Shown here: piece after piece, positions 17,216 to 24,302 of the stretch
Layout: each line of letters begins with the position of its first letter
Position numbering within the stretch: position 1 is the first letter of the stretch
Assembly (NCBI GenBank): GCA_012719535.1
Contig: JAAYAC010000032.1
Coordinates: 1 to 34,471 of the forward strand
Length of the DNA stretch: 34,471 bases
From: Syntrophomonadaceae bacterium
Lineage (GTDB): Bacteria; Bacillota; Syntrophomonadia; Syntrophomonadales; Syntrophothermaceae
Reading direction: 5' to 3'
Position numbers and translations under genes: made by a program
The notes under the pieces: generated by a model
What the model was told of the DNA's origin: nothing
Database searches by the model: none
Seen by the model: only the letters and a program-made list of their open reading frames with translations

Positions 17216-17229
17216 TTTCTTGTCCAGCA

Positions 17230-17507
17230 TAGCAGCAAAGGTGATGATGAAGGAAAGTAGCTCCGTGGAATCCTACAGGGAGGAGGCGTCGTGACTGGAA
17301 GCGCCTCCAGGAGGAAGCAGAGTGAAGTTCCCTTCTGAACTCCCGGCTGAAACCAGTTCAGGCAAGTAGGTCGAGGCGGAGACTTCCACCGTTAAAAGGA
17401 AGGGGATATCGGATGACAGATCCCGTATCCTGAACGAGCGGACCTTAGTCAAGTTGGGTGGTACCGCGGAAAGCCAGCTTTCCGTCCCAAGGGAGGGAAA
17501 GCTTTTT
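17230..17507 (+). promoter_or_regulatory. T-box riboswitch, tRNA-Phe specific by its specifier
   Basis: A leader that reads uncharged tRNA and lets transcription continue when it is scarce. Visible parts: AGTA (17256-17259) near the 5' side of stem I; an apical hairpin GAGGCG/CGCCTC; the specifier region GTGAA-6nt-TTC-T-GAACTC with TTC (Phe) at 17333-17335; stem III GGATA...TATCC (17404-17430); and the T-box TTGGGTGGTACCGCGG (17454-17469). The terminator follows. The Phe codon fits the downstream genes aroF and pheA. The base after the specifier is T, where a purine is more usual, so the codon call rests on spacing by analogy with B. subtilis tyrS plus gene context. Confidence 0.9.
17477..17507 (+). 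terminator. First T-box terminator
   Basis: GCTTTCC (17477-17483) pairs with GGAAAGC (17496-17502), a G-G mismatch follows, then TCCC pairs with GGGA around an AA loop. TTTTT at 17503-17507. Confidence 0.85.
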
Positions 17508-17525
17508 GTTTGGTTGGGGAACTGT

Positions 17526-17618
17526 ATCCCGTATCCTGCCGAGTGGGCTTTTAAGCCAAATTGGGTGGTACCGCGAGCAGGCATAACCTCTCGTCCCTTT
17601 GTCGGATGAGAGGTTTTT
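17526..17618 (+). promoter_or_regulatory. Second, partial T-box module (stem III-like, T-box, terminator)
   Basis: A second T-box sequence TTGGGTGGTACCGCG (17561-17575) follows the first terminator by about 50 nt. There is no room for another stem I or specifier. 17526-17575 aligns with 17420-17468 of the first module: both begin ATCCCGTATCCTG, share CGAG, and end in the identical T-box, so the segment looks like a tandem duplication of the 3' half of the riboswitch. It has its own terminator. Confidence 0.8.
17587..17618 (+). terminator. Second T-box terminator
   Basis: CCTCTCGTCC (17587-17596) pairs with GGATGAGAGG (17604-17613), including one G-T pair. TTTTT at 17614-17618. Its loop and stem differ from the first terminator, so the hairpin itself has diverged. 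Confidence 0.85.
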
Positions 17619-17639
17619 AATTTATAGGAGGTGGTGGCT

Positions 17640-17765
17640 ATGACCAGTGACTTTGACTTTATACCGCCAGGTTTTTATGGAGCGAATGGATACTTGCGAA
17701 GGGGGGAAAGGAATGCCGGTTCTATTAAAGGAAGAAGGAAGAGAGATAAAGGTAAAATAACATAA
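17640..17765 (+). CDS. Possible 41-aa peptide ORF between T-box and aroF
   Basis: ATG 17640 is preceded by an excellent site, AGGAGGTGGTGG (17627-17638). The peptide begins [18 protein letters not shown] and ends in a run of Lys/Arg. It has three Phe and two Tyr in its first 18 residues, with all three Phe coded TTT. I know no homologue. It could be a leader peptide, a small unknown protein, or a relic of an older aroF 5' end, although it does not resemble the N-terminal domain of DAHP synthases. Its stop lies 25 nt before the aroF GTG. Confidence 0.35.
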
Positions 17766-17790
17766 AGATAAGGTTAAGACGAGAGTCTCG

Positions 17791-18555
17791 GTGGGAGGTC
17801 GTGTTTTCGGCAGTGAAGAGGTGGTAATCATAGCCGGGCCGTGCGCCGTCGAGAGTGAGGAGATGTTGTGGGAAATTGCCGTCAGGATAAAAGAAGCAGG
17901 GGCGGCACTGCTGAGAGGTGGGGCGTATAAGCCCAGGACTTCCCCCTATAGCTTTCAGGGGCTTGGCGAACAAGGCCTGAAGGTACTGGCCCGGGTGGGT
18001 AAGGCACTGGATATGCCCGTAGTCACCGAAGTGGTGGACACCGGGGATGTTGAGACGGTGGCGGCTTATGCCGACGTTCTGCAGGTAGGCGCCAGGAACA
18101 TGCAGAATTATTCACTGCTCAAAAAGTTGGGGACCATCGACAAGCCGGTGATACTTAAAAGGGGTATATCGGCCACTGTTGAAGAATGGCTGATGGCGGC
18201 CGAGTATATCTTACTGGCCGGCAACGAGCAGGTAGTTTTGTGTGAGCGGGGGATTCGCACTTATGAGCCCTGGACCCGCAATACGCTGGATCTGTCAGCA
18301 GTTGCCCTGGTTAAACACCTGTCCCACCTGCCGGTGATAGCGGACCCGAGTCATGCCACCGGTCTTGCCCACCTGGTCGGGCCGATGGCCAGGGCGGCGG
18401 TGGCAGCTGGCGTTGACGGGCTCATGGTGGAGGTGCACATAGCCCCAGAGCGGGCTTTGTCGGATGGGGCACAGTCCTTGACTCCGGACCAGTTCGGCCA
18501 TCTGGTCCGTGAAGTCGACCTTCTGGCCGGCCTGATGGGAAGGAGGGTCCGGTAA
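17791..18555 (+). CDS. aroF: 3-deoxy-7-phosphoheptulonate (DAHP) synthase, short type I-beta
   Basis: First enzyme of aromatic amino-acid synthesis: phosphoenolpyruvate + erythrose-4-phosphate to DAHP. Motifs: [10 protein letters not shown] (residues 13-22), [56 protein letters not shown] and DPSHATG. At 254 aa it lacks the N-terminal regulatory ferredoxin-like domain of the Thermotoga form, as in the short archaeal enzymes. The start is uncertain. GTG 17791 has only a weak GAGAG site and cuts into the first beta strand; codons upstream (KTRVSV) still look homologous, but TAA at 17758 blocks the frame, beyond which an ATG at 17713 with GGGGGGAAAGGA lies in the same frame. Controlled by the Phe T-box; pheA follows by 1 nt. 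Confidence 0.85.
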
Positions 18556-18556
18556 G

Positions 18557-19429
18557 ATGGAGGTAACATGTGCAGTTCTCGGCCCCAGGGGTACCTTTTC
18601 CAGTGAAGCTGCCCACCGCTACTGGGGTGGGAACGTCAAACTGTTGGAGGTGGACAGCATTGCGGAGGTTTTCTACATGGTTACCCATGGTTCCGTAGAC
18701 GCGGGGATGGTACCGCTGGAAAACAGCTTGTCCGGAAGTATAGCCACGACCATGGACAAACTGGAAGAGAATCCGGTATTTATTGCCGGAGAAATACTCA
18801 TGTCTATCAACCACTGTCTCCTGGCTGCCGCCGCTCTATCTCTGCACGAGGTTGAACTGGTTATATCCCAGCCCCAGGTCCTGGTACAGTGTGAGAAGTT
18901 TCTCAAGACCTTTCTCCCTGAAGCCCGCCGGGAGATTGTCGAAAGCACGGCCCGTGCGGCCAGCATCATTAGAACGGAGACCCGGCGGGCGGCAGCCATA
19001 GGACCATACCAGGCTGCATCCATATACGGCCTCAAGGTCATACGGTCAGGGATACAGGACAATCCTAACAACAAGACCAGGTTTATTCACCTGAGCCGGA
19101 CCCTGAGCTACTCCGAAGGGGCCGACAAGAGCTCCCTGGTTTTTTCGCTACAGGATAGACCGGGGGCTCTCTACCGGGCTGTGGGTGCATTTGCCCGCCG
19201 GAACGTCAACATGGTCAAGATTGAATCACGCTCCCGGCAGCACCGGTCTGATGAATACCGATTTTTCGTAGATATCGAAGGTACGCCCCGCAACGCGCAG
19301 GTGGCAGAAGCTTTGCACGAGTTGCAGGAAGTCAGTATTGGCTATCGTTTTCTGGGTAGTTACCGGTCGGCCGAAAAGCGAGGGGAGGGAAATGCCAAAC
19401 GACAGGTTGTTGCACAGGTTGGGAAGTAA
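18557..19429 (+). CDS. pheA: Prephenate dehydratase
   Basis: Converts prephenate to phenylpyruvate in phenylalanine synthesis. A 290-aa stand-alone enzyme without a chorismate mutase domain. Catalytic part: LGPRGTFSSEAA (residues 7-18), PLENSLSGSIATTMD, and NKTRFIHLSR with the conserved TRF. C-terminal ACT domain (about 190-270): DRPGALYRAVGAFARRNVNMVKIESRS, whose GAL and ESR motifs bind phenylalanine for feedback inhibition. ATG 18557 is 1 nt after the aroF stop, with AGGAGGG (18541-18547) inside aroF, so the genes are translationally close. The T-box senses Phe-tRNA, giving transcriptional control in addition to feedback. Confidence 0.93.
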   Translation: MEVTCAVLGPRGTFSSEAAHRYWGGNVKLLEVDSIAEVFYMVTHGSVDAGMVPLENSLSGSIATTMDKLEENPVFIAGEILMSINHCLLAAAALSLHEVELVISQPQVLVQCEKFLKTFLPEARREIVESTARAASIIRTETRRAAAIGPYQAASIYGLKVIRSGIQDNPNNKTRFIHLSRTLSYSEGADKSSLVFSLQDRPGALYRAVGAFARRNVNMVKIESRSRQHRSDEYRFFVDIEGTPRNAQVAEALHELQEVSIGYRFLGSYRSAEKRGEGNAKRQVVAQVGK

Positions 19430-24087: not shown

Positions 24088-24302
24088 GACACAGGAACCA
24101 TGTGTACAGAGGTCTGAAGTCCCTGCTGTGTTCGTGATAAGCCAGTTGATTTTGGCCCAACACCAAAATTAAGGGAGCCTGGACTCTGGGTGTAGCTTGC
24201 ATGCCCAAATAGTTGGGAAGCGAAAAACACTCAGGAGGGCACCCACCTGCTGGGGAAGCAGGTTCAAAATAACTGGCTCCACACGACTCGGTGGGGCTTT
24301 TT
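24088..24302 (+). ncRNA. ssrS: Structured RNA, candidate 6S RNA
   Basis: A promoter-RNA-terminator cassette of about 215 nt with no plausible ORF, between aspS and tcdA. I recall that B. subtilis 6S-1 RNA (bsrA) lies at exactly this place, between aspS and yrvM. Visible helices: GAACC (24095-24099) with GGTTC (24261-24265) bringing the ends together; ATTTTGG/CCAAAAT (24149-24155, 24163-24169); CTGGGTGT/ACACTCAG (24186-24193, 24227-24234) enclosing CCCAA/TTGGG; and ACCTGCT/AGCAGGT (24245-24251, 24257-24263). The last competes with the end-to-end pairing. I could not trace the single long rod with central bubble that defines 6S, so the name rests mainly on synteny and size. Confidence 0.55.
24276..24302 (+). 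terminator. Terminator of the 6S-like RNA
   Basis: GCTCCAC (24276-24282) pairs with GTGGGGC (24291-24297), with one T-G pair. TTTTT at 24298-24302. Confidence 0.75.

Follow-up and report, generated by a model that had tools for sequence, protein, structure and literature searches.

A shared anchor strand complementary to both terminator modules of a partially tandem phenylalanine T-box leader

Genomic setting of the leader

The window, by which the whole analysed stretch of DNA is meant, comprises 34,471 nucleotides of contig JAAYAC010000032.1 (GenBank assembly GCA_012719535.1) from a Syntrophomonadaceae bacterium. The genes relA, dtd, and an MBL-fold gene are followed by an RNA leader at approximately 17222-17640 and then by aroF and pheA. 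An Rfam profile search returned a match to the T-box family RF00230 at 17235-17492 with 97.4 bits against a gathering cut-off of 93. The leader was assigned to this family on the basis of a score above the curated cut-off together with a stem I and the specifier UUC at 17328-17330. The initial annotation had already proposed phenylalanine specificity, and the UUC specifier agrees with it and fits the pathway of the downstream aroF and pheA genes. The GAAGUUC motif at the specifier was invariant in all 30 aligned leaders. The features of the locus are listed below; the name F-box was taken from the accessible part of PMC7583486.

17186-17215, + strand: promoter-like site, TTTACA-18-TATATT with TG (weak evidence)
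17235-17340, + strand: T-box stem I, specifier UUC (Phe) at 17328-17330 (Rfam alignment; GAAGUUC conservation)
17341-17394, + strand: stem II and IIA/B pseudoknot region, with the F-box CCGTTA (17389-17394) as its 3' end (Rfam alignment)
17404-17414, + strand: anchor strand GGATATCGGAT, single copy (leader comparison, pairing counts)
17420-17430, + strand: copy 1 of the docking strand, ATCCCGTATCC, forming a local hairpin together with the anchor (repeat, pairing counts)
17436-17452, + strand: stem III of module 1 (Rfam alignment, leader alignment)
17454-17490, + strand: antiterminator 1, T-box bulge UGGUACC, T-box at 17454-17468 (-14.0 kcal/mol)
17476-17507, + strand: terminator 1 and U tract (folding)
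17526-17536, + strand: docking strand copy 2, ATCCCGTATCC, pairing with the anchor across module 1 (pairing counts, covariation, tree)
17541-17559, + strand: stem III of module 2, with GGC/GCC in place of the GAC/GUC of module 1 (sequence, leader alignment)
17563-17597, + strand: antiterminator 2, T-box bulge UGGUACC (-4.7 kcal/mol)
17585-17618, + strand: terminator 2 and U tract (folding)
17791-18555, + strand: aroF, 3-deoxy-7-phosphoheptulonate synthase, regulated gene, start codon uncertain
18557-19429, + strand: pheA, prephenate dehydratase, regulated gene

The promoter-like site upstream of the leader was the only one found in the scanned stretch, where 0.5 were expected by chance, and the scan returned none between module 1 and module 2. 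Between the leader and aroF lies a 41-codon ORF (17641-17766, + strand) that is preceded by GGAGG and begins with a Phe/Tyr-rich segment; in many relatives, the aroF-like ORF begins at this position. Leader-peptide control through the short ORF was considered and rejected because neither its start nor its reading frame is conserved among the relatives. A 6S RNA (RF00013, 102.1 bits) was identified elsewhere in the window, at 24117-24301 on the + strand.

Two modules behind one stem I

Module 2 spans 17526-17618 and contains a stem III, a T-box, an antiterminator, and a terminator, without a stem I. The initial annotation had described a single specifier domain and had named a profile-model search as the means of confirming that only one stem I exists. 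That search was run and confirmed one stem I: the match to module 2 (17541-17598, 30.9 bits, E-value of 4.4e-5 for the genome) is limited to model positions 159-216, and a hidden second stem I was rejected because, in addition, only about 33 nt separate terminator 1 from the second stem III. Ten T-box matches were obtained for the genome, among which only the Phe leader contributes two. The leader is therefore partially tandem, having a single stem I and two terminator/antiterminator modules, and is not fully tandem, there being no second stem I with its own specifier.

The two antiterminator/terminator modules of the initial annotation, and the identical 15-nt T-box in each, were likewise recovered. 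The T-box TTGGGTGGTACCGCG occurs at 17454-17468 and again at 17561-17575, within a pattern of direct repeats of 22 nt (91% identical, starting at 17447 and 17554) and 13 nt (100% identical, starting at 17420 and 17526) that are offset by 107 and 106 nt, respectively. The double T-box pattern was found once in the window and in none of 100 shuffled sequences. Two terminators were folded (17476-17503 and 17585-17615), each with approximately -19 kcal/mol and with z-scores of -3.2 and -5.0, respectively. Stem III changes from GAC/GUC in module 1 to GGC/GCC in module 2, a compensatory difference by which pairing is retained. Competing antiterminator and terminator structures could be drawn and scored in silico for both modules, with energies in the window of -14.0 kcal/mol (antiterminator 1), -18.5 kcal/mol (terminator 1), -4.7 kcal/mol (antiterminator 2), and -19.0 kcal/mol (terminator 2). 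Since antiterminator 2 is the weaker of the two antiterminators, module 2 seems more reliant on help from the tRNA than module 1. The tRNA-Phe(GAA) of the genome ends in A-CCA and is complementary to the UGGU of both modules, so that in each the variable base of the UGGN bulge matches the discriminator base of the cognate tRNA.

A feature missed by the initial annotation is that each module opens with a docking strand of the form CCYGUAYCY, and that the complementary strand GGRUAUCGG, here termed the anchor, lies upstream next to the F-box, adjoining the tRNA-binding domain, and is present in one copy only. The anchor can either form a local hairpin with copy 1 or pair with copy 2 across module 1. 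An anchor hairpin was absent from the Rfam alignments of the other eight T-boxes of the genome.

Related leaders and conservation of the modules

Among 61 genomes related at the level of the order or more closely, the genome under study included, 24 contained the strict two-T-box pattern, and a DNA search with the leader gave matches at E<=1e-15 in 45 of 63 genomes. The set of relatives comprised 58 loci, reduced to 52 by removal of 6 duplicates, and the 46 leaders with all three strands were used for pairing and folding. The other six were L153, which lies at a contig end; L172, the second T-box of which escaped the script; L252, which is another leader without the anchor; and L253, L255, and L256, in which the F-box deviates from the script pattern. 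L228, L230, and L245-L251 were retained despite a degenerate first T-box.

Two modules were present in all 30 aligned leaders across the order. The last T-box found was GGTGGTACC(G/A)CG in 51 of the 52 leaders, a count that includes L153 and L172, in which the script saw the first T-box only (the second T-box of L172 is GGTGGTATC); the exception was L146, with GGTGGCACC. Retention of the last T-box in 51/52 leaders indicates that module 2 is under selection. The first T-box was degenerate in 12 leaders (L228, L230, L245-L251, L253, L255, and L256), with the last one kept or nearly so, which suggests that double checking is not always retained. In L228, L230, and L245-L251, the first T-box is degenerate (e.g., UGGUAUAGCG) and stem III is shortened, with docking strand 1 kept and a canonical second module. 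In three genomes (G006, G008, and G012), the leader with the degenerate first module is a second, paralogous one.

Pairing and covariation of the anchor

Across the 46 leaders, pairing of the anchor with copy 2 was scored over columns 3-8 and 10-13, where 449 of 460 cells were paired, a value above all of 2000 shuffles. For copy 1, 422/460 cells were paired in the same columns, which was also not reached in any of 2000 shuffles, and shifted registers gave at most 238 paired cells. The two copies differed in the columns that fall in the loop of hairpin 1: column 12 was paired in 44/46 leaders for copy 2 versus 21/46 for copy 1, and column 14 in 34/46 (0 of 20,000 shuffles) versus 14/46, the latter being at chance level. 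No excess pairing was found at column 15 in the 46 leaders. Because copy 2 pairs with positions of the hairpin 1 loop, a toehold would be available to it. For the same reason, copying of sequence from copy 1 to copy 2 was rejected as the source of the covariation, since copy 2 pairs with loop positions with which copy 1 does not.

A covariation counter applied to 30 sequences gave 97.0% paired for copy 2, with 5 pairs showing double changes (0/500 shuffles), and 90.8% paired for copy 1, with 2 pairs showing double changes, a number reached in 62 of 500 shuffles. On a tree built from stem I/II, 6 double changes from one Watson-Crick pair to another were counted for anchor and copy 2, versus 1 for anchor and copy 1. 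Taking relatedness into account in this way leaves few double changes, and the covariation support is real but not large. Among individual substitutions, nine leaders have an A to G change in the anchor. In eight of them both copies carry the matching U to C change, and the remaining one has C only in copy 1, its U in copy 2 forming a G-U pair; in L127, GG to AA in the anchor goes with CC to UU in copy 2. Pairing between anchor and copy 2 is, at the level of sequence comparison, well supported, and the same comparison shows a single strand that serves two modules, with copy 2 under selection to bind it.

Geometry and predicted folding

The docking strand was located 31-42 nt from the T-box in both modules, with a mean distance of 34.3 nt in module 1 (n = 35 leaders), a corresponding value for module 2 of 34.6 nt (n = 45 entries, including copy 1 of L153 and L172, where the script had seen one T-box), and a standard deviation of 2.0 nt in each case. 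The spacing from T-box 1 to copy 2 varied widely, from 65 to 194 nt.

Equilibrium folding was performed on stepwise longer transcripts, and predictions of a swap refer to these ensembles. Before copy 2 is made, the anchor was predicted to lie on copy 1 with a mean of 6.5 pairs. Just after copy 2 is made, 6.4 pairs were predicted between anchor and copy 2 versus 1.2 with copy 1, and at the second T-box the values were 5.0 and 2.4, respectively. A swap of the anchor from copy 1 to copy 2, with more than 4 pairs, was predicted in 38 of 46 leaders; in the other eight (L157, L162-L164, L167, L225, L229, and L233), copy 2 did not clearly win. As a predicted site for copy 2, the anchor ranked best in 35 of the 46 leaders, second in 9, and lower in 2.

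A second lineage and wider distribution

A pattern of two T-boxes 77-137 nt apart was searched in a collection of 84,980 genomes and matched 108 stretches. Likely false positives, judged by repeat context or by organism (archaeon), were left out: L032 and L074 (106 loci remaining) and then L095 (105 remaining). The 105 contig loci consisted of 96 with two modules, 6 with three, and 3 with four.

The anchor design was also found in all 20 Lactobacillaceae His loci of this set, with a sequence unrelated to that of the Phe type. The specifier of these 20 loci is CAC (His) as read by eye, and the next ORF, where examined, resembles by eye the permease of an amino-acid ABC transporter or, at a more distal position, the binding protein that goes with it. 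The anchor of this type is GAAGUUUA-like and forms a local hairpin, and copy 2 extends over the hairpin loop. Nine pairs with copy 2 were formed in 98.9% of cells over the 20 loci, with 24 double-change cells versus 6.0 in shuffles (0/500), and copy 1 was 92.9% paired. In a layout close to that of the Phe type, the start of the anchor precedes T-box 1 by 52-58 nt and the end of copy 2 precedes T-box 2 by 33-36 nt. In the accessible portion of PMC9413887, His T-boxes of Lactobacillales are described on hisYZX, most of them single, with tandem ones mentioned only in Enterococcus.

By type, the 105 loci comprised 31 of the Phe type (several from species that are also represented in the order set), 20 of the His type, and 54 that fit neither pattern, and a general rule by which partially tandem T-boxes would carry the anchor design was rejected on account of these 54. 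In a single-locus test by ungapped duplex scan, 18 of the 105 contig loci reached p<=0.05; these were mostly of the His type, and most Phe-type loci, taken one by one, did not differ significantly from shuffles. A looser duplex scan that allowed wide loops gave 13/106 loci, was uninformative, and was superseded by the ungapped scan.

Proposed mechanism and alternatives

The reading that we prefer, at a probability of roughly 0.55, is that a single tRNA, bound to a single stem I, undergoes two checks, with module 2 displacing module 1 on the anchor. In this transcriptional Phe T-box, a single tRNA-Phe would be held by the one stem I/II and interrogated twice. Folding predicts that the anchor pairs with copy 1 first and with copy 2 once the latter has been transcribed, and that pairing of copy 2 with part of the hairpin 1 loop would serve as the toehold for strand displacement. 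After RNA polymerase clears terminator 1, docking of copy 2 may loop out module 1 and bring module 2 to the position relative to the tRNA that module 1 had occupied, where the uncharged tRNA 3' end would then stabilise antiterminator 2. Two positive checks would be needed for read-through, leakage with charged tRNA would be the product of the two terminators, and the response would probably be AND-like or sharper. The hand-over of the tRNA from one module to the other is what we infer from this arrangement. The broader proposal of a T-box relay in at least two distant lineages, in which the anchor would be handed between modules by toehold-mediated displacement and one tRNA proofread twice, is more tentative and stands at somewhat less than even odds.

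The docking strands and the single anchor speak for a single tRNA held in cis rather than for a second one attached through its NCCA end alone. That second possibility, in which the first tRNA would stay on module 1 and another uncharged tRNA would bind antiterminator 2 in trans, accounts for the UGGU retained in module 2 and for the lack of a stem I there; however, it predicts neither the co-evolution of anchor and copy 2 nor the fixed docking distance, antiterminator 2 of the window has little stability by itself (-4.7 versus -19.0 kcal/mol for terminator 2), and we regard the trans model as unlikely. Terminator 2 might instead merely cut basal leakage, with antiterminator 2 forming without tRNA past module 1, and two serial terminators, both of which were found, would be expected to lower the leak whatever the sensor. 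Such a fail-safe is improbable given that the last T-box is kept in 51/52 leaders, more often than the first (degenerate in 12), and that terminator 2 is far more stable than antiterminator 2 in the window.

Folding and covariation demonstrate pairing and not function, so the helix of anchor and copy 2 could simply shorten or protect the leader with no part in tRNA movement; however, a positioning role is suggested by the use of one anchor twice and by the equal spacing of docking strand and T-box in the two modules, which leaves this explanation with a low probability. The near-identical 13-nt and 22-nt repeats would suit a recent duplication without function, but this is contradicted by the conservation of two modules in 30/30 aligned leaders across the order and by the compensatory stem III difference between the modules, and it is very improbable.

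If the hand-over of one tRNA between two modules is true, the leader would be a natural kinetic-proofreading device made of RNA and would offer a simple principle for placing successive decision modules under the control of one sensor.

Relation to known systems

In fully tandem T-boxes, the complete T-box, stem I included, occurs at least twice, so that two tRNAs are bound; the Phe leader differs in having one stem I. T-boxes with duplicated terminator-antiterminator elements were reportedly presented as a new structural class in the abstract of Vitreschak 2008.

The view of the initial annotation that partial T-box duplication belongs to a class already known was correct: 'partially tandem' T-boxes are treated in the accessible part of PMC7583486, where they are called unexplained. 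The Phe leader shares with them one specifier domain and a duplicated terminator/antiterminator, and differs by the shared anchor and strand swap, which that part of the source does not mention. With the fully tandem T-boxes described for trp, thrS, ilv, and leu in the accessible part of PMC12452182, it has in common serial terminators on one leader. Compared with the transcriptional long-stem-I T-box of RF00230, it has the same stem I and specifier, stem II and F-box, stem III, T-box bulge, and terminator, and likewise controls amino-acid biosynthesis genes, whereas the second discriminator module and the anchor/docking helix lie outside the family model. As in strand-exchange riboswitches, two mutually exclusive helices share one strand, here the anchor, with covariation that is weaker for copy 1, and the same arrangement was found in the His type. 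Such riboswitches use a toehold and strand displacement during transcription (accessible part of PMC10907184), as the Phe leader may also do according to equilibrium folding of stepwise longer transcripts; there the exchange is the on/off decision, whereas in the Phe leader its effect would be to shift the sensor from one decision module to the other.

Relative to the known class, what is new is the single anchor complementary to the docking strands of both modules. No description of a shared anchor was found in searches of the T-box literature on partial duplication, tandem modules, and toehold or strand displacement, which covered titles, the openings of abstracts, and the accessible parts of PMC7583486, PMC12452182, PMC7778990, PMC2494555, PMC9413887, PMC10907184, and PMC2965389. 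The anchor and its two docking strands make the open question of partially tandem T-boxes testable by a few compensatory mutations.

Other T-box arrangements

Four modules were seen in L082, L101, and L111, and three in L015, L050, L058, L061, L081, and L096; except in L081, the specifier of these loci is UUC and the next ORF looks by eye like an NSS-type transporter. Neither the Phe-type nor the His-type anchor was found in the loci with three or four modules. Two-module T-boxes precede trpE-like genes (by eye) in L016, L063 (specifier read as UGG), and L089, where a hairpin of the GGGUAU...GUACC type lies in module 1 and no clear docking copy 2 of that type was found.

A further T-box leader (L001:1501-1788, equivalent to G000:C103:10584-10871; 131 bits; specifier apparently CUC, Leu) has a complete tRNA-Ala(GGC) gene inside its stem III loop (L001:1664-1738), an arrangement for which a search of the literature found no description. 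Excision of the embedded tRNA-Ala would sever the riboswitch between stem I and antiterminator. In nine relatives (L236-L244), the next ORF looks by eye like a leucyl-tRNA synthetase. The pattern of a tRNA-Ala end plus T-box was present in 47/63 genomes of the class and in 14/398 of a phylum sample, 13 of these 14 being from the same order.
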